NCBI GenBank assembly: GCA_947632375.1
Contig: CANRPF010000005.1
Location: 1-64,000 of the forward strand
Origin: an uncultured Bacilli bacterium
Lineage (GTDB): Bacteria; Bacillota_I; Bacilli_A; RF39; UBA660
Length of the DNA: 64,000 nt
Direction: 5' to 3'
Shown in pieces: positions 7,279-37,508 of the stretch (position 1 is its first letter; each line of letters opens with the position of its first letter). The notes under the pieces were generated by a model that ran no database searches, was not told the DNA's origin, and saw only the letters and a program-made list of their open reading frames with translations. A program made the translations under genes and the position numbers.

Positions 7279-7438
7279 TTATTTAAGAACTAATGGCTTA
7301 CCTAAGGAAGAAAAAGATAAAAAGAAAGCAGATTTTATCAAAAACCTAAAGAAAGCCATAGCAAAGAGAGAAAAGAATGTAAAAAAGGAGAGTAAAGACA
7401 ATGGAGAAAGAACAAAGAAAAAAGGTTCAAGTTCTTGA
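7268..7438 (+). CDS. hypothetical small basic protein
   Basis: 56-codon ORF bridging dnaE and the ligase gene, overlaps both; read from sequence. Confidence 0.45.
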   Translation: MKIDYLRTNGLPKEEKDKKKADFIKNLKKAIAKREKNVKKESKDNGERTKKKGSSS

Positions 7439-8576
7439 TTTTATTAGGGAACATGATAACTGGGAAGAACTGTTGTCTAAAGAACCTTATAACATAATAA
7501 TTAAATGGAAGAAACCTTTTGTATTACTGAAATATAATCAATATGAAAGTGATTTTGGTAATCCAATAGTACAGGAATGTAGAGGTTTAATTTTAAAAGA
7601 AGATAAAGAAGAGAAGTTTAAAATCGCCTCTATGCGTTTTTCAAAATTCTTTAATTATGGTGAAGATAAAGCCTCTAAATTAGATTTTGACCCGTATGTT
7701 GAAGTTCAACAAAAAATAGACGGGTCTATTATAGGGGTTTGGTACGACCAGATTACTGGTTGGCACGTATCTACAAGTGGTAACATAGACGCCCAAGACG
7801 CAGATTTACAATTTCAAACAGATGTTTTAAAAAATTATTATGATTTATTTAAGGAAGCGGCTTTGAATACAAATTTTCAAACAAAGTTTTTGCAACCACA
7901 ATATACATATATATTTGAACTTGTAAGTCCGTACAATAAAACAGTTGTGCCTTATCCAGAGCCAGATTTATATTTATTGGCTGTTAGAGATAATAATACT
8001 TTGGAAGAGGTATCACGTGATGTTTTAAATTTTATGGGGTCAGTTTTAAATGTTAAAACACCAAAATATTTTAGTTGTACTAATATAAAAGAAGCCAAAG
8101 AGGCTGTTAGTAAACTAACAAAGAATAGTGAACACTTTGAAGGTTTTGTTTTATGTGATAAACATTTTAATAGAATAAAAATGAAGACGCCATGTTATAT
8201 GGAATTATTCTTTATGAAAGGCGAAGGAATAATGTCTGAAAAGAAGATTTTAAAAATCATACTAGACGAAGCTGACGACGATTTTATATCAGCGTTCCCA
8301 GAGTATAAGAAAGAATTTAATGAGATAAAAAATGCTTTTAATAATTTTACAAATAAAATGAAAGAAGCATTGAATATCGCAGGAAAGTTTAAATCTGGTG
8401 ACAGAAAGACTTATGCTAGCGAGGTTTGTAGAAGTCCATTTGCAGATGTGTTATTTAAAGCCTATGATATTGATTATTGGGATAAAGCAAAACCAGAACA
8501 AAACGAGTTTGTCATAGATTATATTAACAATATACATTTATCTAAACTCGTAGAAAGGATAAAAGAAGAATTATGA
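7401..8576 (+). CDS. RNA ligase (T4 Rnl1-like)
   Basis: ECRGLIL...FSKFFNYGE...VEVQQKIDGSIIGVWY ligase motif I, EGFVL. Confidence 0.85.
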   Translation: MEKEQRKKVQVLDFIREHDNWEELLSKEPYNIIIKWKKPFVLLKYNQYESDFGNPIVQECRGLILKEDKEEKFKIASMRFSKFFNYGEDKASKLDFDPYVEVQQKIDGSIIGVWYDQITGWHVSTSGNIDAQDADLQFQTDVLKNYYDLFKEAALNTNFQTKFLQPQYTYIFELVSPYNKTVVPYPEPDLYLLAVRDNNTLEEVSRDVLNFMGSVLNVKTPKYFSCTNIKEAKEAVSKLTKNSEHFEGFVLCDKHFNRIKMKTPCYMELFFMKGEGIMSEKKILKIILDEADDDFISAFPEYKKEFNEIKNAFNNFTNKMKEALNIAGKFKSGDRKTYASEVCRSPFADVLFKAYDIDYWDKAKPEQNEFVIDYINNIHLSKLVERIKEEL

Positions 8577-10948: not shown

Positions 10949-13900
10949 TTGAAATATGTAGTAAAAAGAGATAAAAGGACAGAATTATTTAATAAAGAAA
11001 AGATTATAAATGCTGTTGAGGCAGCGTTCAATAGCGTGGAAAACGAAATTTCAGATAAGGCTCACATGAAAGCGAGAGAAATCGCTAATTATGTAGGTGA
11101 TATAGAAGAAACTTTAGACGTAGAAAAAATACAAGATATTGTAGAAGAAAAATTAATGGCTAGCAATAGAAAGGATATAGCAAGAGAATATATAAGATAT
11201 AGATACCAAAGAACAAAAGAAAGAGAAAGAAACTCACAGTTCATGAAAGAGGTGTCAGAAAAACTAGGGGCAACTAATGTACAAAACCAAAACGCTAATG
11301 TTGACGAACACTCATTTGGTGGTCGTATGGGTGAGGCTAAAAACTCACTTATGAAAAAGTATGCACTAGATTATATTATGTCTGATATGTCCAGAGAAAA
11401 TCATTTGAATAATGAAATATATGTTCATGATTTAGATAGTTATGCTGTTGGTTGTCATAATTGTTTAAGTATACCTTTTGACAAATTATTAGCAGAAGGG
11501 TTTAATACAAGACAAACAGATGTAAGACCAGCACAATCTATTAATACTGCATTTCAGTTGGTGGCTGTAATATTTCAATTACAAAGTTTACAACAATTCG
11601 GTGGGGTAAGTGCAACTCATTTGGATTGGACAATGGTTCCGTATGTTCGTAAATCGTTTTATAAACATTTTATAGACGGTTTGCATTATGTAACCGACGC
11701 TAAATATGACGAAAGTGAATTTAATTCAGAACTAAGCGTTGATAGCGAAGAATATAAAAAATATCCAGCAACTTATAATTATGCTATGGATATGACAAAA
11801 AGAGAATTAAATCAAGCTGTAGAAGGTATGTACCACAACCTTAGATATTAGGGCGACTTAATAGTAATATTAAGAACATAGCTATCTAAACGGGGAAACT
11901 CTTTTAATAAGACAATCCCGTGCTAAATTTGTATTAATAAATACAATAAATGCCTAACGACTATCCATATAAAAACGTGGAGTAGGGCTAAGCGGCTCGA
12001 AATGGTAGCCTCCCTTTAGGGAAGAAGATATAGTCTAATCTTTATGGTGACATAAAGAAGTTCATAAGAGAACTGCATAAGAGTAGCGACCTTATGTGAA
12101 TACAAATGTAATACATTGCAATCACGTAGTGGTAATCAATTACCTTTTACATCAATAAATTATGGTACTTGTACTCTACCAGAAGGTAGAATGGTAATTA
12201 AAGCATTATTAGAGGGTTCTATTAAAGGTGTAGGAAAAGTAAGAAAAACACCTATATTCCCATGTGGAATATTCCAATGTATGAAAGGCGTTAATAGAAA
12301 AGAAGGAGACCCTAATTATGATTTATTCTTATTAGCATTAAAATCAACATCTAAAAGATTATATCCTAATTATGCTAATGTAGACTGGTCTGGTAATGCT
12401 GGATATGATATAAACGACCCTAAAACATATTTCTCAACTATGGGTAAGTGTAAATGCAGCTCATATAAAACCTTTTGAACCTCGCTCGAGGGTGTCACAA
12501 TTTTTGTGGCTAACGGTTAGGACTTATTAAAGTTGAGACCGTGCTAAGCCTTTATTAAGGAAAGTGTATCGACTATCCCTGGTGAATGTAAGGGAGTAGA
12601 GCTAGAGATAAGCACTAGCTCGAAGCGGAAGGCTGTCGAAAGATAGAAGATATAGTCAGTGCCAATGGTGACATTGGATAAAACGTGCAGAACAGCGAAT
12701 GGCTTTGATATAAATGCAGACGAAGGTGTAAATCCACAAACAAAAGACGGTCGTGGAAACATTTGTCCTGTAACTATTATAATGCCAACTCTTGCTATGG
12801 AAGCAATAAAAGAAAATGATAATATAATAGATAATTTTATAAATCTATTAGATAATAAAATATCAGAAGCAAGAGATATGCTCATTGAAAGATATAATTA
12901 TATATGCAGTCAAAATCCTAATTCGGCTAAATTTATGTATGAAAATGGTTTAATGATAGGATATGACGGAAAGAACATTGAAAGTGCTATGAAGCATGGT
13001 ACTTTAGCCATAGGACAAATAGGTCTTGCAGAAACTTTACAAATATTAATAGGTAAAGACCATACAACAGAAGAGGGTATGGAATTGGCTAAAAAAATAG
13101 AAAGTTTATTTAAAAAACGTTGTGCAGAATTTAAAGAAGAATATAAATTAAACTTTGGGGTATATTTTACACCTAAATTTTCTTGGGTGAATTAATAGTG
13201 ATATTAATTAAAAATCTCGTTAAACGGTCTATCGTAATAAGGTGGTAAGAGAGCCTAAACCGAAAGGCAGAGGTAATACCGTAGGATTTCATTCAAATTG
13301 TAAGAAAGGAATTAATAGCATGGCTAAGAAATTATTAAAAGATAAATTGGTTAACAGAAACGAAATTAAAGAAGAATTAAGACCAATTAAAAATACAAAA
13401 AATGCTTATTGTACGCCTAGTGGTTTGTTTTATGCAGATTATGGTAACGATATGTTTTATCCATTAAGAACAGAAATAAACTCAACAAGTAAATATTGTT
13501 ATGTAGGATTAAGATATAATAATAAAAATCATAACACTAGAAAGAAAGCACATAGAATAATAGCAGAAACATATATTCCTAATCCTAATAAATGTAAAAC
13601 GGTAAGACATAAAAACAATATAAGACATGATAATCGTGTCGAAAATTTATACTGGACTAATATTTGAATGATGTTCTCTAACGACTATCGAAAATTATTA
13701 ATGTAATGAGTAGAGTACACTTATGTGGAAAAGCGAGACCCTTCATAAGAAGGTGAAGATATAGTCTAATCCGTAACTAAATATCGGGAAACCGACGGTA
13801 GAAAAATGGCAGAAAATTTATGCTATACCTCAATGAAAAAGTTTAAATCAAAATATGGTGAAATACAAAATGTTAGTGACAGAGAATATTTCACTAATTC

Positions 13901-14955
13901 AATACACGTTCCTGTTTGGAAAGAGATGTCACCATTTGAAAAAATAGATATTGAAAGCCAATTAACAGGATATAGTTCAGCAGGTTGTATAACTTATGTA
14001 GAATTAGACGGTGGTGTTCAAAACAACTTAGAAGCATTAGAAGAAATAGTAAATTACGCAATGGATAAAGATATACCATACTTTGCTATAAATGTACCAA
14101 ATGACACTTGTTTAGAATGTGGTTATACAGACGAATTTAATGATAAATGTCCAATGTGTGATAGTGAAAATATCCAACAATTAAGACGTGTAACGGGTTA
14201 ACCTGTGAAGATAAGCCCGAAAATTAGTGTAAACTTATCGAAATGATAAGGTTCCCTTAACCAGAACTCTATTCGGGTTCAGAAGTAAAATAATAATTAA
14301 GGGGGTATCAAGAAATGCGAAATAATGCAAACCTTGAGTTTAGAAAAATAAAATCGCTTAAATATTTATATGAAGTTAATGAAAATGGAACTATCTTTAG
14401 AAATGTAAAATCTAAAAAACAAAATAAAATTGTCCTAGATAAACATCACTCAAAGACTGGTTATTATAAAACATATGTTCGATTAAACGGAAAAACAAAA
14501 AGAGTTATGATACATAAAATTGTTGCTGAATGTTGGCTAGGTGATTGTCCAGAAGGATATGAAGTAGACCATATTGATAGAAACAGCAGAAATAACAATT
14601 ACAGAAATTTAAGATATGTTGCTGAAAATAAAGTTTTAGTAAAACCAGTTAAGATAGTTGGCAATGGTGAAGAAAAAATATTTAGGTCAATGACTAAATG
14701 TGCAGAATATCTTGGAAAGAAATATAATAAAACAACAGAAGCCATAAGATATAAATTAAAAGCGAGAAGACATCATATATTTGATTATGATATTATTTAT
14801 CTAAATGCAGAGACTAGACACACTAACCCCAAGGGGTAAGGAATAGTCCATAATGAAAGATTATGTATTTAACAGGAGACTACAAAACAGCGTTTAACTT
14901 AGGTAAACAAAAAGAAACAGAAGATAGATATAAACATAGCAAAAAAATGAAATAA
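10949..14955 (+). CDS. nrdD: anaerobic ribonucleoside-triphosphate reductase, join(10949..11841,12109..12445,12686..13174,13809..14198,14866..14955)
   Basis: Exon junctions rebuild HNL/NTLQSRSGNQLPF, STMG/CRTANGFD, GVYFTP/AENLCYT, RRVTG/YLTGDYKTAFNLGKQ. Confidence 0.93.
11842..12108 (+). mobile_element. group I intron 1 in nrdD, no ORF
   Basis: Exon ends in U, intron ends in G; AACGACTATCC and AAGATATAGTCTAA (P7-like). Confidence 0.87.
12446..12685 (+). mobile_element. group I intron 2 in nrdD, no ORF
   Basis: Exon ATGGGT, intron ends ACG; TCGACTATCC / GAAGATATAGTC. Confidence 0.87.
13175..13808 (+). mobile_element. group I intron 3 in nrdD with HNH ORF
   Basis: Exon ends CCT, intron ends ATG; AACGACTATCG / GAAGATATAGTCTAAT. 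Confidence 0.88.
13321..13667 (+). CDS. intron-encoded HNH-family homing endonuclease
   Basis: KAHRIIAETYIPNPNKCKTVRHKNNIRHDNRVENLYW; start at AAGGAATTAATAGCATGG. Confidence 0.75.
14199..14865 (+). mobile_element. group I intron 4 in nrdD with HNH ORF
   Basis: Exon ends GGT, intron ends ATG; GACTAGACA / GGAATAGTCC. Confidence 0.85.
14315..14839 (+). CDS. intron-encoded HNH homing endonuclease
   Basis: MIHKIVAECWLGDCPEGYEVDHIDRNSRNNNYRNLRYV; RBS AAGGGGGTATC. Confidence 0.88.
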   Translation: MRNNANLEFRKIKSLKYLYEVNENGTIFRNVKSKKQNKIVLDKHHSKTGYYKTYVRLNGKTKRVMIHKIVAECWLGDCPEGYEVDHIDRNSRNNNYRNLRYVAENKVLVKPVKIVGNGEEKIFRSMTKCAEYLGKKYNKTTEAIRYKLKARRHHIFDYDIIYLNAETRHTNPKG

Positions 14956-14978
14956 TCTTTTAAGGGGTGCGGTAAACT

Positions 14979-15398
14979 GTGAGAACAATCACAAAACAAA
15001 TGGTAAGAGAATATGATTTAAAAAAAGCAGGTTTTGATTTTATGGGATATACTTTTAATAATATGAACGAATTAAGTTTTCACCATTTAATTATTCCAAA
15101 AAGAGATAGTAAAAAACAAGGAATAGGAGACGGTTATCATAAATGGAATGGTGCTATATTAGTAAGAGATACATCTCATGATTATTTACACATTATAGAA
15201 AGATTAGACCGAGATATGTTTTTAGAAATCACAAAAGAAATGATAGAAGAAAATATAAGAGGTTGTGTTGATGTGAAAAACCTAAAAAGAATAAGAGATA
15301 TACTATTGAGTTTTGAGAGAGAGCATAGTGGAGAATTAACAAGTAAAGGTAAAATTTTAATAAAAAATAGTTATATAACAAAAAGAATACCTTTATAA
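14979..15398 (+). CDS. small HNH-like protein between nrdD and nrdG
   Basis: LSFHHLIIPKRD...WNGAILVRDTSHDYLHIIERLD. Confidence 0.6.
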   Translation: MRTITKQMVREYDLKKAGFDFMGYTFNNMNELSFHHLIIPKRDSKKQGIGDGYHKWNGAILVRDTSHDYLHIIERLDRDMFLEITKEMIEENIRGCVDVKNLKRIRDILLSFEREHSGELTSKGKILIKNSYITKRIPL

Positions 15399-15410
15399 AA
15401 GGAGATTAAT

Positions 15411-15908
15411 ATGAGATACGCACAGATAGAAAGATATGAAGTTACTAATGGTAAAGGATTTGGGGTGTCTTTGTTTACACAAGGTTGCCCCTTCCATTGT
15501 AAAAATTGTTTTAACCCAGAAACATGGGATTTTGACAAAGGAAAAGAGTGGACAAAAAAAGAAGAAGACTTAATAATCGAGTTGCTAAAACCAGATTACA
15601 TGACAAGGTTGACAGTTTTAGGTGGAGAACCTATCCTAGAACGTAATATAGAACCCCTTACAGAGCTTTTTAAACGTTTAAAGGAATTATACCCAGAAAA
15701 ACAAATATGGCTCTATACGGGTAGTAATTTTGAATATGTAGCAACAGTTTATGACGAGTTTATAGAGTATATAGACGTTATGATAGACGGACAATATAAA
15801 GACGAATTAAGAGACGTTTCCCTTGCTTTTAGGGGCTCTACAAACCAAAGAATTATAGACGTGCAAAAGTCTTTAGAAAATCATAATGTCGTAATACTAG
15901 ATATATAA
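15411..15908 (+). CDS. nrdG: anaerobic NTP reductase activating radical SAM protein
   Basis: GFGVSLFTQGCPFHCKNCFNPETWDF. Confidence 0.93.
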   Translation: MRYAQIERYEVTNGKGFGVSLFTQGCPFHCKNCFNPETWDFDKGKEWTKKEEDLIIELLKPDYMTRLTVLGGEPILERNIEPLTELFKRLKELYPEKQIWLYTGSNFEYVATVYDEFIEYIDVMIDGQYKDELRDVSLAFRGSTNQRIIDVQKSLENHNVVILDI

Positions 15909-20090: not shown

Positions 20091-20713
20091 CTCCTGCCTT
20101 CGTTCTTTTCATTAGATATACCACCTTCTGTATCCCACCTATAGACGTATATCTTATCTTTTGTATATTTACATTTTGGTAAAGTTGCTTTAAAACTATC
20201 ATAAAAGAAAGCGTCTTCCCCAAAACCATACAAACTAAATAAATTATCAAATCTTATATTATGTTTATTTAGATAACTCAACCTATAAAGTCCACTCCAC
20301 ACGTAAGCACAACCAGCACGTTCTACGTATTCGTCGTCTCCCGTGTCGTCTATATAATCAAAGCCATACAAATCATATTGTCCGTCTTCTATATAGCCTA
20401 ATAGAGTGTTTATATAATTATCTAAGACATAATCGTCGCTATCCATAAATGTTATATATTCGCCTTTTGCATTGTTAATACCAATATTTCTACACTCTGC
20501 AACCCATAAATTTTCTTTATTGATTACATAATGAAAGTTTTTATTTTTAGATATTTTATGTTTAAGCATTATATCAACACTATTATCTGTAGAACAATCG
20601 TCAATGAATATTACCTCAACCTCTTCTGTTAACTGATTGTTTACACTATCGAGCATTTGTTCGAGATACAAACTTTTATTATAGTTTGGAATAACTATGG
20701 TTAATTTAATCAT
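20069..20713 (-). CDS. family 2 glycosyltransferase
   Basis: LTIVIPNYNKSLYLEQMLDSV...FIDDCSTDNS...ITFMDSDDYVLD. Confidence 0.9.
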   Translation of the reverse strand: MIKLTIVIPNYNKSLYLEQMLDSVNNQLTEEVEVIFIDDCSTDNSVDIMLKHKISKNKNFHYVINKENLWVAECRNIGINNAKGEYITFMDSDDYVLDNYINTLLGYIEDGQYDLYGFDYIDDTGDDEYVERAGCAYVWSGLYRLSYLNKHNIRFDNLFSLYGFGEDAFFYDSFKATLPKCKYTKDKIYVYRWDTEGGISNEKNEGRRCITWYA

Positions 20714-21197
20714 TTAATATCTCCAAAGCCTTATAATAATCGTTCATAGTAAATCCTACATTAGTAGATGTTTGAACTAAATGTTCTTGTTGTTCTGGTA
20801 AAAAATCATTGTCGTCGTCTAATATAATGTAGTTATTAATTTCAGGGTGTTCTTTTAAATACACGTCTATCTCTACACCTCTAATATTCTCTTTTGAATA
20901 AATCATTGGCGTAGAGCCGAGTATTTTAATATCTTTTAATAATCCAGAATTATATAAACACTCGTCAACATTATTGCTAGAACGCCAAGACGAAGATATT
21001 ACTATATGTGAGTTTGTATCTTTACATAGTTTATTTAACCACATAATAGACTGTCTATTTGAGACACAACCACTACTCTCATTACATAATAAGTAATAAA
21101 ATCCGTCTCTTTTTACTTCACCTTTAATATTAAAAGGCTCTGTACTAATTTGAAATGTATTGACTACACCGTCTATATCTAAAAATATAACATTCAT
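20706..21197 (-). CDS. HAD-like phosphatase
   Basis: MNVIFLDIDGVVNTF...ISSSWRSS...IILDDDNDF. Confidence 0.75.
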   Translation of the reverse strand: MNVIFLDIDGVVNTFQISTEPFNIKGEVKRDGFYYLLCNESSGCVSNRQSIMWLNKLCKDTNSHIVISSSWRSSNNVDECLYNSGLLKDIKILGSTPMIYSKENIRGVEIDVYLKEHPEINNYIILDDDNDFLPEQQEHLVQTSTNVGFTMNDYYKALEILND

Positions 21198-21243: not shown

Positions 21244-23244
21244 TTAACTAAATAAATCTATGATTGTATCTTTTGTGATAGCCTCTAAAGATAAATCAAT
21301 ATCTGCTTTTATTTCTTCTTCAACTATATCGCAAGAGCCGTCTTCGTTCTCTTTAATTACAGATTTTTTATATGTAGGACTATTAATAACGATAGCACCA
21401 GCGTCTGTAAGTAAGTCATGAAGTTTTAATCTTGTTCTTGAATTTTGTTGTAAGAAATCAAATGCTATTTTTTTGGCTTCTGTTTGCCTAGAAGATATAT
21501 TGCTACCTTGTGAAAAATCTTCAAAGTATAATTTTATATCTTCGTCTGTGATAACCATAAGTCCAATAACCATATCATATTGATTAGGCACTACTTTTAA
21601 ATTACATTGAGCCAATATATTATTAGGGTCAACAACATAATTATCACTTAAAGTTGCTTGGTATGGATTATCTTCTTTTGCAACCATGAACTCAAATGGA
21701 ATTTCTTCATTATTTGCTGTAAAATTATTTAATGTTATTAACCAAGCACCATATCCATAATCTCTGCTAACATAAAATACTTCTGTTGCACCTAAAGGTT
21801 CAGGGGCTGTTGTCAAGTCACCAGAGAACAAGATACTATTATTGCTTGTTTTATATTGGGCGTCCCAACCAAAACTCTCATTCTTATTCATTTGCTTTAT
21901 ATCTAAATCAACTCTACCGTTTTTATTAAACCAATGAATACCATAAACCATATTACTATCTCTTGGAACAGAAACACATGAACCTACTGGAATATTACCA
22001 ACGAACATCTTCTCGCTTGTAGGAGCTGCGTATGTAATGTTAGACGGAATGTAAACTACTTTACCGTTAACTTTATCTGTCATTCTCATTACTAGATAAG
22101 TATATATGTATTCATGATACGCAGAGAATTTAGTTTTAATAGGTTTACTAATACTATCTATTTGTTTAGCATATGTTTTACCATTTCTAATTTTATATAG
22201 CATAGCATTATTACCTGTCATTCTGTAAGATAAAGCATTTAAAATTCTAATTACTCTAAAAACGGTAGCGTCGTTTAGTTCTTTTGTTAATTCTTCAAAA
22301 TCAATATGAATAAGGTGTTCACTATTATAATTTACATCTGTTATGTGATTTAATAAACTATCTTTTAAAGGTTTATGATTTTTCTTGGCAAGTTTTCTTA
22401 ATTTATTGATTATTAAGTTTATACCAGTTCTTGTAGTCTTTTTGCTATCATAATAGTAATTATCACTCTTTACCTTTAAAGCAAGAAATAATTTTTTATT
22501 TCTTAGGAATATAGAAGATAACTTCTCATAACCACCAACAGTATTAACATATTTATTTAACAAATCAAATCTTGTATCAATATCGCTACATTGCAACTCT
22601 TCTATTAATTCTTTGCTTTGTATTTTTAATGTTTTACCTGTTAGTTTATATATCAAATAACGTAAGAACTCGTCTGGATTTTTTGGTACAACACCATATC
22701 TATCGTATAAGGCTATTTTAACCTCTCTGTTTTTGATGTCGTCAAACTCTTCTCTTCTAAGAAAATCGGATAACAACATAACATCTTCAACTGTATCTTT
22801 AGATAAGGCTATACCACTTGTCAATAAGGTCATAAGTTTTTCATTAACTTGTTTTGTTGTCAATGGTCTAATATAAATTAAATCAACATCTTCTTTTAAT
22901 TCTGGTATCTCTAATTTTTCTGCTGGAATATATACTGTCTCTTCGCTATAAAGTCCTAAAATTTCAAGACCATAAGTTGTAAAGTAATGAGTTAATTGTT
23001 GACTAATTAAAGTATTTATATCTTTATCAGCAACAGTTTGAAAACTCTTATGAAAAGTATTATTCCATTGTTTACCGTCTTTACCATACATTTGAATAGC
23101 GTCTTCGACAATACTATCGTCAGCAAAATCTGGAATTAATAGACCATATTTAAAACCACGTTCATTAAAACTTTCAGCCTTTTCTTCTGAATAAAAACCT
23201 TTAAATAATCTTAATAACGACTTTTGCATTTCCATAACAAACAC
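21244..23244 (-). CDS. large protein with possible TerD-like C-terminal region
   Basis: RVDLDIKQMNKN...SILFSGDLTTAPEPLGATEVFYV...AWLITLNNFTAN; family assignment tentative. Confidence 0.55.
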   Translation of the reverse strand: MFVMEMQKSLLRLFKGFYSEEKAESFNERGFKYGLLIPDFADDSIVEDAIQMYGKDGKQWNNTFHKSFQTVADKDINTLISQQLTHYFTTYGLEILGLYSEETVYIPAEKLEIPELKEDVDLIYIRPLTTKQVNEKLMTLLTSGIALSKDTVEDVMLLSDFLRREEFDDIKNREVKIALYDRYGVVPKNPDEFLRYLIYKLTGKTLKIQSKELIEELQCSDIDTRFDLLNKYVNTVGGYEKLSSIFLRNKKLFLALKVKSDNYYYDSKKTTRTGINLIINKLRKLAKKNHKPLKDSLLNHITDVNYNSEHLIHIDFEELTKELNDATVFRVIRILNALSYRMTGNNAMLYKIRNGKTYAKQIDSISKPIKTKFSAYHEYIYTYLVMRMTDKVNGKVVYIPSNITYAAPTSEKMFVGNIPVGSCVSVPRDSNMVYGIHWFNKNGRVDLDIKQMNKNESFGWDAQYKTSNNSILFSGDLTTAPEPLGATEVFYVSRDYGYGAWLITLNNFTANNEEIPFEFMVAKEDNPYQATLSDNYVVDPNNILAQCNLKVVPNQYDMVIGLMVITDEDIKLYFEDFSQGSNISSRQTEAKKIAFDFLQQNSRTRLKLHDLLTDAGAIVINSPTYKKSVIKENEDGSCDIVEEEIKADIDLSLEAITKDTIIDLFS

Positions 23245-23259
23245 CTTCTTTACTATAAT

Positions 23260-23735
23260 ATTAAAATAGACGAGAGGTAATACAAGCCCATAATGTAATA
23301 AAGGAACCTCTTGTGTCTATTAAAACAATATAGGCGACGAGTAATCTCCTTCTTTTTTGAAAATGGCTCTGCCATACATTAGTAGGGACTCGTTATGCCT
23401 ATATTTATATATTACAAGAACGTAGACTAAATCAATATCCATTTACTAACTATTCGTTAATATGAAAGGAAGCCTATATGTCCTTATAACCAAATTTAAG
23501 TGGTTTAGGTTAGATTTGCACTAACATATAAGATTTATAACTTTACGACCTCATGAGAAAGTACGACTTTATCGAATATGATAAAAATTACAATAACGTC
23601 TCCACTCAAAACTATCTTATGTTCTACTTGAACTACTAAACCATGAGTGTTCGGCGGATTAGACCGAACATACTTGATATACTACAAAAATCAATCGAAA
23701 AACAATATATCAAGAAGTAAAAAATGAAAAATAAT
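23260..23735 (-). ncRNA. structured RNA region A (strand inferred from the flanking operon)
   Basis: No ORF; inverted repeats at 23265-23321, 23330-23402, 23550-23647, 23558-23570, 23648-23670, 23673-23714. Confidence 0.55.
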
Positions 23736-23739
23736 CGGT

Positions 23740-23900
23740 GTGCTTTGACAGGAGTTGAACCTGTAACTACAGAATTAATATTGATTGAAAAATTTACAAA
23801 AAACAATCAACAAAGGTAAAGTATATTAAGAGGAGTCGGAAATATGAAAACCGCTGCTCTAAAAGAGTATTCTGTCGCTTTACGTTAAGCTACAAAGCAC
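23740..23900 (-). tRNA. tRNA-like structure with about 90-nt insertion between anticodon-stem halves
   Basis: Acceptor TGCTTTG/CAAAGCA, D-arm GCTT/AAGC, ACAGA/TCTGT, T-arm ACAGG-TTCAACT-CCTGT. Confidence 0.45.
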
Positions 23901-23907
23901 ATATAGA

Positions 23908-24052
23908 TTTCAACTCACAAATTATAGGCTATTTTGGAAAAGGGGTACCAAAATCCTAAATAATAAAGTTCTATTTGTGATAACAATTTTAAACATTGTC
24001 GTACTAAGTTCAAATAATTACAAGAACAATGTCTCCTAATTGTGAGTTGAAA
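23908..24052 (-). ncRNA. structured RNA region B (three-way junction)
   Basis: 13-bp closing stem TTTCAACTCACAA/TTGTGAGTTGAAA; internal ATTTTGG/CCAAAAT and ACATTGT/ACAATGT. Confidence 0.55.
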
Positions 24053-24059
24053 ATAATAT

Positions 24060-24135
24060 TGGTGGAACATACAGGGCTCGAACCTGCGACCTTCTGCTTG
24101 CAAAGCAGACGTTCTCCCAACTGAACTAATGCCCC
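24060..24135 (-). tRNA. tRNA-Ala (TGC)
   Basis: GGGGCAT/ATGTTCC with G3:U70, TTTGCAA anticodon loop, encoded CCA. Confidence 0.92.
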
Positions 24136-24298
24136 AAATATGAGGTTCGCAAATCTAGTGGAGGAAAATTCACTAAAATTTGTTATGACATGCAAACTTC
24201 CATGATATGCAAACCCTAAAAGGAAATAATAATCATAATGACATTCATATTACATCAAAAGATTATCGAATAATAAAATGTACAAAAAGTAATACATT

Positions 24299-24373
24299 TG
24301 GCAGGGGGTGTAGGAGTCAAACCCACTCGACAGTAGTTTTGGAGACTACTCGGCAAATCGTCGCCTACCCCCT
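24299..24373 (-). tRNA. tRNA-Trp (CCA)
   Basis: AGGGGGT/ACCCCCT, GTAGT-CTCCAAA-ACTAC, G73, encoded CCA; short D loop. Confidence 0.8.
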
Positions 24374-24445
24374 AGGAAAAGGGAGGGAACCCTCCATAGA
24401 GGTGATTTCTATGAAAAGCATACAGTAAACGATAATAATGATTTT

Positions 24446-24545
24446 ACCTATCTAAATCATGTTCTCTAAGCCATATTTTGTGTCCCGATTTGTAATGGCA
24501 CTTGTTTACTGAAAGACGCTTTCACTTTTTACAAAGCAGATAGGT
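24446..24545 (-). ncRNA. structured RNA region C
   Basis: Closing stem ACCTATCT/AGATAGGT; inner TGAAAG-ACG-CTTTCA and GCCAT/ATGGC. Confidence 0.45.
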
Positions 24546-24586: not shown

Positions 24587-24615
24587 ATTATATCATAAAT
24601 AATCACTATTGTCAA
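24587..24615 (-). promoter_or_regulatory. sigma70-like promoter of the tRNA/ncRNA operon
   Basis: TTGACA-17-TATAAT (minus), TGA extended -10. Confidence 0.82.
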
Positions 24616-24955: not shown

Positions 24956-25716
24956 TTTAAAGTATTAAGTATTTCGTCTAACATTACAGCACATTCGTCT
25001 GGTGATATTTCTCTGTTAGCTCTCATACCCCTTCCAAGATATTTATACCAAGAAACTTCATAATCACGCCACTTGAAGTTGTAATCTTCTGTAGCACTCT
25101 CGCTCCAGTCATAAGCAAATGCGTCAAATGTATTACCATGAAATCTTTGTCCTGTATTTTTAAATGGACTTTCGTATACCTCATTATTTTTATTCCACAT
25201 ATATGTACATAATCTATCTTCTATTGTTCTTAAAGCAGAATATACATAATTTGGAACGTTATGACTATATTCTTTGGTGTTTCTAAAATCTTCGTCAGCC
25301 CTAATATCAAGACAATTAATACCAAGTTCTACTCTATTATCATACAGAACCATTTTTTGTTCTTCATTGAAAAAAGCGTCTTGGTCGTTCCACCCAACTA
25401 TTAAATGTAAGTAAGGCTCTTCTTTGCCTTGCAAATTAACAATAATTTGAGTAATATCTTTATTCTCTAATCTATCAAAGACACTACTGTCAACACCAAG
25501 TATATCTATATACGTCAAATCATAAATCTTCTCATTGAATATTATAAAAACACTACCACATATCAAATCTGACTCTATATTACCATTTCTATAATAATGA
25601 GTTGTTGTAATATCTTCAAAGAAATAACTATCAATGTAATCTGCTGGAATAGTTGCACTATCACAATTTTCAAAAACAAGTTCTATACTTTTTAGTTTAT
25701 CATTCTTCTTCTCCAT
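24952..25716 (-). CDS. hypothetical protein
   Basis: 254-aa ORF. Confidence 0.65.
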   Translation of the reverse strand: MEKKNDKLKSIELVFENCDSATIPADYIDSYFFEDITTTHYYRNGNIESDLICGSVFIIFNEKIYDLTYIDILGVDSSVFDRLENKDITQIIVNLQGKEEPYLHLIVGWNDQDAFFNEEQKMVLYDNRVELGINCLDIRADEDFRNTKEYSHNVPNYVYSALRTIEDRLCTYMWNKNNEVYESPFKNTGQRFHGNTFDAFAYDWSESATEDYNFKWRDYEVSWYKYLGRGMRANREISPDECAVMLDEILNTLK

Positions 25717-26650
25717 TATACACGCTCCTATCTGCGTCAGCCTTCATTAATATTTCTAATTTAGAGAATAATTCTTCTCCTATCTTTTCTTTAGTTTTAT
25801 CTAAATCTGCAATAAATTTATCCATATGGTGATATATCAAAGTTGCCACTTGCATATCTTCTAACTCTACTTCTGTTAATAAGAAATTTCTATGTTTATA
25901 ACAGTTAGCATATAGTAAATACAAGTAAGCAGAAACTTTATGGTGACTATAATAAGTAGATGTCTGTTTTTCTTCGTTGTAACCTCTACAATAAGGTTTA
26001 CCTATATCATGAAATCTACCAGCACGACGTAAAATTTCGTCTCCGTCGCTCCACTTATAAGCCTTATCACACGTATTTAATAAATGCTCTATTAACGTCT
26101 GTGTATGATGTATATTGCCCTGTTCATAATTATACCCTATTCTAGTCAACAAGTCAATAATCTCGTCGCATGGAAATGTGTCAGTATTTGCATAGTGTAT
26201 TTTGTCAAATCCCTCATAATACATTGGAATATCTATGTTTCGTATCATTGACAATAACTTATCTTCTGGAATATGTCTTTCAGGTCTTGTTAAATTACGG
26301 TCAAATAAAGTACCAATAGAACATAAACATAATATAGCCTCAACGTTTGCTATTTTTTTTGTTTCATTAATTATGTTTTTACGTCTTTTTATGTTAAGGT
26401 TGGTAGCATTATAAATGACATCTTTGCCTTCTTGTAAGGCTTTTCTTGAACGTTTTCTCATTTCAGCAAAAACCTTTTCGTTATGTTCTTGGTCTTCAAA
26501 ACCAAATAATTCTACTCTAATATCGTCACTTGAAACAATAGCACACTCTACACCATTTTCTTCTATATGTTCTTTTAACATATTGGCAATCGTGTCTTTC
26601 CCAGAGCCTGGAACCCCTATCATTACATATAAGGTGTTTTGTCTTCGCAT
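25700..26650 (-). CDS. polynucleotide kinase-like P-loop kinase fused to HD phosphohydrolase
   Basis: MIGVPGSGKDTIA...; GRFHDIGKPYCR...YYSHHKVSA. Confidence 0.82.
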   Translation of the reverse strand: MRRQNTLYVMIGVPGSGKDTIANMLKEHIEENGVECAIVSSDDIRVELFGFEDQEHNEKVFAEMRKRSRKALQEGKDVIYNATNLNIKRRKNIINETKKIANVEAILCLCSIGTLFDRNLTRPERHIPEDKLLSMIRNIDIPMYYEGFDKIHYANTDTFPCDEIIDLLTRIGYNYEQGNIHHTQTLIEHLLNTCDKAYKWSDGDEILRRAGRFHDIGKPYCRGYNEEKQTSTYYSHHKVSAYLYLLYANCYKHRNFLLTEVELEDMQVATLIYHHMDKFIADLDKTKEKIGEELFSKLEILMKADADRSVYNGEEE

Positions 26651-33177: not shown

Positions 33178-33414
33178 TTATTTTAATTTTATTGTTTTAG
33201 ATAATCTAGGCATTTCTTGCTCATATATATTTATGAAAGTTTGCAACATTGAGGCTGCTGTTTTATAGTGAGAACTATGACATACTGGAATATAAGTTGG
33301 CATTTCTTGTTTGTCTAGGCTCTCTCGGTTACGCATTTCTATATCGTGTAATGTATTTAAGTAAAATTGTCCAGTAAGGGGACAATATTCCCCCACCCAA
33401 ATCTCTTTTTCCAT
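33178..33414 (-). CDS. hypothetical protein
   Basis: ORF. Confidence 0.55.
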   Translation of the reverse strand: MEKEIWVGEYCPLTGQFYLNTLHDIEMRNRESLDKQEMPTYIPVCHSSHYKTAASMLQTFINIYEQEMPRLSKTIKLK

Positions 33415-33884
33415 TATCCGTCAAAGCCATAATAACCGAAAGCAACTATTTTATCCCCACTTTTTGTTGTATAATCTTCTTTATATTGTTCAAAATCCTC
33501 ATAATAATCTTTATAATGTTCAAATGAGAAAGGAATATCATAAGGGAAATCTTCAATAAACTCGTCAATATCTTCTTTTGTTAAAGTATTGAGATTTTCT
33601 TCTGTACATAAGTCTTCTATGTTGTCTGCTTTTACGTCATTATACATATATTCTGTAGCATATTTACCTTCACTATTTTTATAAGTATCATAATTACATC
33701 TTTCATAAATAATACTCTTTTTAACTTCTGTAACAAACTCTTCTTCTGTACAAAACCTCTCATTAAGACTATCATAATAAAGTTCTCCATTTTTCCATTT
33801 ATTATAATCGTCGTCACTACATATTACTAATGAGTGTGTACTGCTAGAGTTAGTTTCAAAAGTTTTTCTTCTTAATATTCTCAT
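33414..33884 (-). CDS. NSSSTH-family protein 1
   Basis: MRILRRKTFETNSSSTHSLVI. Confidence 0.8.
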   Translation of the reverse strand: MRILRRKTFETNSSSTHSLVICSDDDYNKWKNGELYYDSLNERFCTEEEFVTEVKKSIIYERCNYDTYKNSEGKYATEYMYNDVKADNIEDLCTEENLNTLTKEDIDEFIEDFPYDIPFSFEHYKDYYEDFEQYKEDYTTKSGDKIVAFGYYGFDG

Positions 33885-33897
33885 ATTATCACCTTCT

Positions 33898-34221
33898 TTA
33901 TATAATTTCTTCTTCAAGTTCTGGAACGATTTCTTCAATAATTTCTTTTACCATTTGTTTAAAGTAATCGTCATTTTTATCTTGTAAAAGACTACCATTA
34001 TTAACGGCTTTTAATAATTTATTCTTTTCTCTTTGTTGTTTTTCTTTTTTAGCATTTTGTAAGATTTCTATCATTTCGTCTATTTCTTCTACACTACATA
34101 AAATACTAAATAGATTTTCTAATACTTCTGTATTTTCTTCTTCCTCTAATAATTCTATTTTATTATCAGCATTATCAGCGTCACTGATAGTGATAGTCAT
34201 TTTAACTGCCTTGTCTTCCAT
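33898..34221 (-). CDS. hypothetical protein
   Basis: ORF. Confidence 0.6.
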   Translation of the reverse strand: MEDKAVKMTITISDADNADNKIELLEEEENTEVLENLFSILCSVEEIDEMIEILQNAKKEKQQREKNKLLKAVNNGSLLQDKNDDYFKQMVKEIIEEIVPELEEEII

Positions 34222-34843: not shown

Positions 34844-35668
34844 TTAGTGCAAGTAAACGTCTTTATCTTTGGAATATTCTTTAAGTCTATCCCAAAACTC
34901 TCCAGCTGGAATATCATACTCTTTATATATATTATACCTTTCTTCTTCGTCTACGTCTTTCAAATCAGGCATTTTTTCTCCTTTTGCATTTACATAATAG
35001 GGCTCTTCGTCATAGTCATATTCATAACCAATAGTTTTAATATTGTACCCCCTGTACTCGTCACCACTTATAGTGATATAAGCGTCTTTGTTAAAAACAA
35101 GTCTTTTAACAAAATCGTCATTTGTACTCAATTGTTCTATTAATCTGTCTCCGTCATAATCATAGACATGGTCTACATAATTACCACCATATCCACCTAG
35201 TATTACAACACCCCTTCCTGTTAAATCTCCATTATCTTTGTCGTCGTCAATATATTTAAAGACGTCTTTAGGATTAGGATTTCTGTATCCGTCTTTATTA
35301 TTTTTAACAAATTCTGAATACCTTTCCTTTTTCATGCTATCTGTTAGTGGAAGAATATCTTCTGTATCCATATCATAATAAGTGTCATTATCTAAATATT
35401 CTTTTACTACTTGCTTCCATATTTCCCATACTCTATCTTTAAATTTCTTTATTGTTTTTTTATCACAATTCTCTTTTATAATCATGTAGACATATGCTAG
35501 TTTTTCGTCCCATTCGTCTACAAGCCTAGAGGGATACCTACCAAAAGTATAGTCATGTTCAAGACTATCGTCAATATTCCATTTATCTTTACTTACTTTA
35601 TGTGGAACAACAATAGCGTGTGTACTACTGCTGTTCGTTTCAAAAGTTCCTTTTCTAATTATTTTCAT
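34844..35668 (-). CDS. NSSSTH-family protein 2
   Basis: MKIIRKGTFETNSSSTHAIVV. Confidence 0.8.
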   Translation of the reverse strand: MKIIRKGTFETNSSSTHAIVVPHKVSKDKWNIDDSLEHDYTFGRYPSRLVDEWDEKLAYVYMIIKENCDKKTIKKFKDRVWEIWKQVVKEYLDNDTYYDMDTEDILPLTDSMKKERYSEFVKNNKDGYRNPNPKDVFKYIDDDKDNGDLTGRGVVILGGYGGNYVDHVYDYDGDRLIEQLSTNDDFVKRLVFNKDAYITISGDEYRGYNIKTIGYEYDYDEEPYYVNAKGEKMPDLKDVDEEERYNIYKEYDIPAGEFWDRLKEYSKDKDVYLH

Positions 35669-37028: not shown

Positions 37029-37508
37029 TTAATCCCTCCCAAATTCAATAATATTTCCATTTGCAAGAACTATTTTTAATAATGTTTCGTGGTCGAATTG
37101 TAATAATTCTATTAATATATCACCTAAATCTTTATCCCAAGATATTAGTTGGTGATTTATACCAACGATTTCTTCAATATCTCCATGATATTCACTAGGA
37201 AATATAATCTGTTTATGAAATACTTTATTAACTACATCTTCTATTTCCTTAAATTGATAATCCGTTTTTATCATAGCCACTAATTCTGCATAAGAATTAA
37301 CATCATACATATACCAACTTGCAATATGAGATACCAAATAAGACACTTTATCTTTTAGTGTTGTTAATCTCATTTCGTCGTCTGTATCTATCCACCTTAT
37401 TTTCAAATTAGAACTATAAGGCGTATAATTTTCCATTTCACCACCTAAAACTAGAGAGTGTGTACTGCTTGAATTTGTTTCAAATGTTTTTTTTCTTTTA
37501 ATTTCCAT
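37029..37508 (-). CDS. NSSSTH-family protein 5
   Basis: MEIKRKKTFETNSSSTHSLVL. Confidence 0.8.
   Translation of the reverse strand: MEIKRKKTFETNSSSTHSLVLGGEMENYTPYSSNLKIRWIDTDDEMRLTTLKDKVSYLVSHIASWYMYDVNSYAELVAMIKTDYQFKEIEDVVNKVFHKQIIFPSEYHGDIEEIVGINHQLISWDKDLGDILIELLQFDHETLLKIVLANGNIIEFGRD

Follow-up and report, generated by a model that had tools for sequence, protein, structure and literature searches.

The minus strand of the window (the whole 64,000-nucleotide stretch analysed here) between positions 24590 and 23260 is, judged from its sequence, a shortened phage tRNA operon containing at least two undescribed RNA families. The explanation I consider best overall, with a probability of roughly 0.55, is that this block combines a pseudoknotted leader RNA, a tRNA operon and an array of stem RNAs, the array acting with the protein encoded beside it as a Y-RNA-like ribonucleoprotein. 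The presence in phages of tRNA clusters and of large structured RNAs has long lacked an explanation, and the block provides material for that question in the form of two RNA families and one protein family not described before. No description of the leader or the stem-unit RNAs was found in a search of the open-access literature.

The window belongs to contig C5 of a metagenome assembly of 2.07 Mb, in which contamination stands at 9%, and Bacilli is the group under which related phage contigs are filed. Its proteins, by sequence reading, include a DnaB-like helicase, a Pol III alpha-like polymerase and a ThyX-like protein. On the same contig as the RNA block are genes for a T4 Rnl1-like RNA ligase (7401–8576, plus strand; PF09511, E 3e-26), a PNKP-like protein with kinase and HD domains (25700–26650, minus; PF13671 and PF01966; phrog_505, polynucleotide kinase) and a HAD_SAK_2 RNA-repair phosphatase-like protein (20706–21197, minus; PF18143, E 8e-25). 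Together these genes indicate that the window is from a large phage. Contigs of relatives (designated L004, L005 and so on) were located by searches with the ThyX-like and PNKP-like proteins, and show the order PNKP, Zn-ribbon gene, promoter, leader, tRNA-Trp, tRNA-Asp, further tRNAs with a tmRNA, array, and a gene for a 666-residue protein. Most of these tRNAs are missing from the window operon, which spans 1.35 kb in place of ∼5 kb. The tmRNAs of the relatives' operons lie at L004 15307–15730, L005 16719–17143, L006 14952–15390, L008 10674–11097, L016 13214–13651 and L017 6633–7056; the window has none.

A preliminary description had presented the block as structured RNA interleaved with tRNAs, devoid of credible reading frames and read from one promoter, and most of this holds up. 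A sigma70-type promoter, TTGACA-17-TATAAT with a TG extension (24615–24587, minus), matches the consensus at 12 of 12 positions and is identical in the relatives. Transcription of the whole block from it, together with the tRNAs, is plausible. No open reading frame of at least 40 codons in the block looks coding, the longest (73 aa) being antisense over tRNA-Trp. The tRNA-Ala (TGC; 24135–24060), the tRNA-Trp (CCA; 24373–24299) and a tRNA-like gene (23899–23740) are all present on the minus strand, as are the inverted repeats listed earlier (23908–23920/24040–24052, 23673–23681/23706–23714 and TGTTCGG/CCGAACA). An Rfam scan of the block gave no family above chance besides the tRNA models, and blastn against phages gave only tRNA matches among the matches listed.

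The same description had suggested one giant RNA, either of GOLLD or ROOL type or new, or else several RNAs, and the last option is the one borne out: the block resolves into a leader of ∼213 nt, the tRNAs, a tRNA-like gene that is interrupted, and small stem RNAs arrayed as three units. The setting is of the GOLLD type, with large structured phage RNAs beside tRNAs, and a GOLLD-like RNA (L006 13963–14424; 102.4 bits, E 7e-26, short of the gathering score of 150) sits between tRNA-Asp and tRNA-Thr in a related operon. In the window, however, the GOLLD covariance model (RF02032) has no match at E up to 10, and ROOL has none at gathering or at E up to 10. GOLLD and ROOL measure 500–800 nt, against 55–140 nt for the stem units and ∼213 nt for the leader, and the sub-blocks are distributed separately among phages, the leader only near tRNA-Trp and the units near the 666-residue gene. 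A single giant RNA of this kind is thus extremely improbable, and the block is better read as a noncoding, highly structured tRNA operon made up of several independent RNAs.

The first of the new families is the leader (24586–24374, minus). The interval from the -10 box to tRNA-Trp, 213–251 nt long, is conserved in all relatives that extend that far. A covariance model (R1) built from the leaders of six relatives, with the window left out of training, matches the window leader with 102.8 bits (E 7e-25), and has no match in phages possessing the array alone. Among eight leader sequences, two-sided changes are seen at 15 of 36 pairs, and 97.2% of cells are paired; the covariation score was reached by 0 of 500 shuffles, and sliding the partner strand cuts pairing to 39–50%. 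With the strands checked singly, helices P1 (24562–24558/24519–24515), P3 (24511–24504/24430–24423) and P4 (24499–24495/24474–24470) were identified. Checked by hand, P1 reads GACGC/GCGTC in the window versus GGCGT/ACGCC, AGCGT/ACGCT and AGAGCGT/ACGCTCT in relatives, the hairpin P2 varies between CTACAC/GTGTAG, CTATAT/ATATAG and CTATAC/GTATAG, P3 is CAGTAAAC/GTTTACTG versus CAATAAGT/ACTTATTG, and P4 is GCCAT/ATGGC versus TCCATC/GATGGA and TTCATC/GATGAA. The 8-bp pairing 24446–24453/24538–24545, taken earlier for a closing stem, does exist, but it is a pseudoknot inside the leader that pairs the P1 loop with the apical loop of P5; it too covaries on hand inspection (ACCTATCT/AGATAGGT, versus TCCTA/TAGGA kept in relatives). 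Because the fold is pseudoknotted, its folding energy is not beyond chance (z -0.08), and simple folding alone would therefore have missed this RNA.

At the 3' end of the leader, three mutually complementary arms, CCTC/GGAGGG/CCCTCC (24402–24382, minus), form an attenuator-like hairpin just before tRNA-Trp. In every phage either arms 1 and 2 or arms 2 and 3 can pair, and the alternative is kept in the relatives, suggesting an attenuator-like function. Control or protection of the tRNA transcript, by way of the pseudoknot and this alternative hairpin, is the leader's probable role. In several relatives the apical loop of P2 is palindromic, CTCGAG in L005, L006, L008 and L016 and CTTAAG in L004, and would there permit dimerisation through loop kissing; the palindrome is lost in the window.

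The tRNA-like gene scores 42.2 bits with the Rfam tRNA model (RF00005; gathering score 29) and possesses all arms, with 97 nt in place of the 7-nt anticodon loop; ARAGORN does not call it. It may be spliced, a mimic or decaying. The insertion was also compared to a reverse-order copy of the stem motif described below, and did not fit. The tRNA-Trp is itself unusual, having a D loop without the usual GG and tRNA-Sec as its top model (37 bits, below gathering), and another odd gene, called tRNA-Phe, whose anticodon loop has 17 nt and which bears an additional hairpin, is found at L006 15394–15493. Three further stretches of the minus strand appear structured: a spacer (24290–24141; fold z -2.20), a 145-nt element closed by the 13-bp stem (24052–23908; z -3.75), and a possible multibranched element closed by TGGTTTAG/CTAAACCA (23643–23501; z -2.07). 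A homologue search for the three found none. In the relatives, two unannotated spacer elements are near-identical between L004 and L006, phages that otherwise differ, one before tRNA-Ala (L004 15836–15979, L006 15590–15744) and one before tRNA-Ser(TGA) (L004 16692–16795, L006 16766–16865).

The second new family, as identified from sequence comparison, is that of the stem units, of which the window holds three in tandem on the minus strand, just upstream of the 666-residue gene. Each unit is built from a 6-bp helix a, a 3x1 internal loop (ANA/C), a 5-bp helix b, a further internal loop (UUCCU.../...UA) and, at the apex, a module that varies. Unit 1 (23485–23416; AAGGAC-AUA-UAGGC-UUCC...UA-GUCUA-C-GUUCUU) was identified by the motif scan, the strict scan and folding, while units 2 (23402–23330) and 3 (23320–23266) also match a covariance model, R2, with 27.5 bits (E 0.001) and 38.6 bits (E 1.6e-6), respectively. 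Helices a and b form in the folds of all three (fold z -2.1, -3.2 and -2.3). By scan, 3–6 units per array are found in L008, L009, L016, L025, L026, L027 and phage S-CRM01.

Among 32 collected units, all 11 pairs show two-sided changes, and the covariation score is 0.838, versus 0.250 in shuffled sequences (0 of 500 shuffles) and 0.14 after one-column slides; the invariant positions (A9, C17, C18, U19, U21 and A22) are all loop bases. The proportion of paired cells, 97.4%, is biased, because the search that gathered these units demanded pairing, and two unbiased tests were therefore made, with a model trained elsewhere and with a pattern covering one strand. The model R2, trained without the window, L052, L053, L079, S-CBWM1 and Phass-1, finds units near a gene of the 666-residue family in every one of these, and over the entire 2.07-Mb assembly 23320–23266 is its sole match with E below 0.9. 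The pattern, AGGCATANNRRGTTCCTTT, describes the 5' strand only. It matched 31 viral stretches, of which five carry the full motif, and all five encode a member of the protein family next door (36–52% identity), while the other 26 encode none. Three of the five are contigs already known, so that only L052 and L053 count as new, independent cases. In shuffled sequence the strict motif occurs on average 0.32 times per 64 kb (both strands), versus three in tandem in the window. Covariation among homologues, the check proposed in the preliminary description, is found, by models and shuffles, for the helices of both leader and array. A weak unit (23.1 bits, E 0.014) was also seen at L051 5534–5610; it precedes a FETNSSST-type gene and one for a HAD_SAK_2 RNA-repair protein, and the stretch examined contains no 666-residue gene.

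Tandem inverted-repeat units in a cluster that has clearly lost tRNAs relative to its relatives could also be DNA elements, such as recombination sites or REP-like sequences, or decayed tRNA genes. This is improbable given the invariant, asymmetric loop bases, the G-U pairs in the helices, the strand, which is always that of the 666-residue gene, and the deep conservation across unrelated phages, and the units are taken here to be RNAs.

The gene downstream of the array (21244–23244, minus; likely start ATG 23229) encodes a 666-residue protein of no assigned family, always found with stem-motif units. Units adjoin the homologue in every phage lineage found to have one, and this adjacency persists at 27–30% protein identity in the cyanophages S-CRM01 (27%) and S-CBWM1 and the gut phage Phass-1, the S-CRM01 homologue being g174. 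No Pfam or PHROG family matches the protein family. An initial viral scan with the 666-residue protein as sole query gave no match, nor did a sequence search of the PDB. AlphaFold models are weak (pLDDT 45 and 58), and the second resembles helical solenoids only generically; Foldseek gave nothing below E 0.001, and the top VIA-align Z of 6.5, mostly to helical-repeat entries, is uninformative. A TerD-like C-terminus was considered, since the VDLDL...SGD positions align in hhalign, but with a probability of only 0.35% this is just a lead.

In the window and in seven relatives (L016, L025, L026, L027, L052, L053 and L074), ∼10–60 nt separate the final unit from the gene. This position immediately 5' of a protein gene, and multi-unit arrays resembling the generally known layout of type III toxin-antitoxin systems (ToxI), are what one would anticipate if the units were cis-acting leader elements by which the 666-residue gene regulates itself, or RNA antitoxins of the type III style. 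However, one unit of S-CRM01 (7855–7908) lies directly 3' of the gene, and those of Phass-1 are 1.3–1.7 kb downstream. Units within one array are also strongly divergent, with variable apical modules including tRNA modules, needless for regulators or for processed antitoxin repeats, and the protein, of 620–670 residues across the family, matched no toxin family in the Pfam search. I therefore consider a regulatory or antitoxin role unlikely, and favour units that act together with the protein.

The apical modules of some relatives' units carry a circularly permuted tRNA, in which a T-arm half is followed by an acceptor closed by a loop and then by a D-arm half. In these inserts the 3' half comes first and a short linker joins it to the 5' half; where the break point can be read closely, it falls on the 5' strand of the stem of the anticodon arm. 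When the inserts are rotated, ARAGORN calls Asn(GTT) in L009 and L025, Lys(TTT) in L016, Ile(GAT) in L027 and Thr(TGT) in L008; it calls no tRNA in any unrotated unit or in shuffled inserts, and rotation reveals no tRNA module in the window's own three units. Other inserts are T-arm/acceptor minihelices (as at L027 6485–6576) or, like those of the window, plain hairpins. A second, non-tRNA module is conserved as AAAGACU..GGG.AGACCC at L008 13834–13912, L009 16330–16410 and L027 6585–6666.

As in the permuted tRNA genes of algae and archaea, the 3' half precedes the 5' half and the break is in the anticodon arm. The relatives' units could be splicing elements for such genes, the motif being cleaved, the ends healed by PNKP and HAD_SAK and sealed by the Rnl1-like ligase, and the circular pre-tRNA opened by RNases P and Z into a working tRNA. 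The intact anticodon loops of the Asn, Lys, Ile and Thr modules, the NCCA in some linkers (L009, L016, L025), as after a tRNA 3' end, the healing and sealing enzymes encoded, and the L016 region, which has a permuted tRNA-Lys and no ordinary one, are all consistent with such a route. Unlike the algal and archaeal genes, however, the phage modules are embedded in a conserved stem RNA, and their acceptors are in several cases closed by short loops. The S-CRM01 acceptor ends in a UUCG tetraloop, an indication of a tRNA mimic, and those of L008 and L016 have four-base loops without CCA. Moreover, most units, including all those of the window, lack a tRNA, and the exon ends lie at no fixed distance from the motif. 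Production of tRNAs by splicing is accordingly quite unlikely.

The closest parallel is the bacterial Y RNA YrlA, together with Rsr (Ro60) and the rtcBA operon for RNA repair. YrlA has a tRNA-like domain, is encoded alongside Rsr and enzymes of RNA repair, and its tRNA-like domain has been proposed to inhibit an anticodon nuclease (PMC7790460); phage tRNAs, for their part, are reported to evade tRNA-targeting defences (PMC10264068). Taken together, these reports make a Y-RNA-like role a reasonable first hypothesis. Like YrlA, the relatives' units have a closed basal stem and an apical tRNA-like domain with permuted halves, and are associated with a single dedicated protein gene as well as with RNA-repair enzymes. 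The Rfam YrlA model (RF02553) matches many tRNA-bearing units of the relatives at 30–37 bits, well below its gathering score of 69, and has no match to the window units; likewise, the permuted tRNA-like domain with closed acceptor is found in relatives only. Unlike in YrlA, the basal stem has the ANA/C and UUCCU/UA loops, the units form tandem arrays and the tRNA module is mostly absent. The 666-residue partner shows no TROVE similarity: a Pfam search of nine family members gave no match to this domain, and hhalign of the protein, as a candidate Ro60, against the TROVE alignment gave a probability of 0.1% or less. A TROVE search of 149 Bacilli-class genomes found one. Given the missing TROVE similarity and the sub-threshold YrlA scores, membership of the Ro/Y RNA family is not claimed.

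By analogy, the units are most likely protein-bound, Y-RNA-like (YrlA-like) decoy or scaffold RNAs. The 666-residue protein would bind their constant stem, the array would be processed into small RNAs, and protein and units would form a phage ribonucleoprotein acting as Rsr does with YrlA. The apical modules, tRNA mimics included, could take part in the surveillance or repair of tRNAs, either as decoys or as docking sites, with the PNKP-like, Rnl1-like and HAD_SAK_2 proteins acting alongside, for example against host anticodon nucleases. A compact, transferable cassette of this kind, an RNA array with a single protein, turns up repeatedly, in phages of Bacilli as well as of cyanobacteria and human gut bacteria, accompanied by tRNA mimics and RNA-repair genes, so that a role in tRNA surveillance or against nucleases is directly testable; two of the phages that carry it, S-CRM01 and S-CBWM1, are cultured. 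More tentatively, and at somewhat less than even odds, the cassette may represent a new class of phage ribonucleoprotein coupled to RNA repair and countering host attack on tRNAs, in which tandem RNAs with a constant stem and interchangeable heads (hairpins, T-arm minihelices, permuted tRNA mimics) join a new family of 620–670-residue proteins, the operon adding a pseudoknotted leader.

Two observations were made elsewhere in the window. Paralogues with an N-terminal FETNSSSTHS motif are encoded at 33414–33938, 34844–35668 and 37029–37508, and are multi-copy in the relatives as well. The anaerobic ribonucleotide reductase gene within 10949–15908 is apparently split (10949–11851 and 12659–13195), and an HNH-like open reading frame lies in the same interval (14315–14839), so this gene may contain introns.
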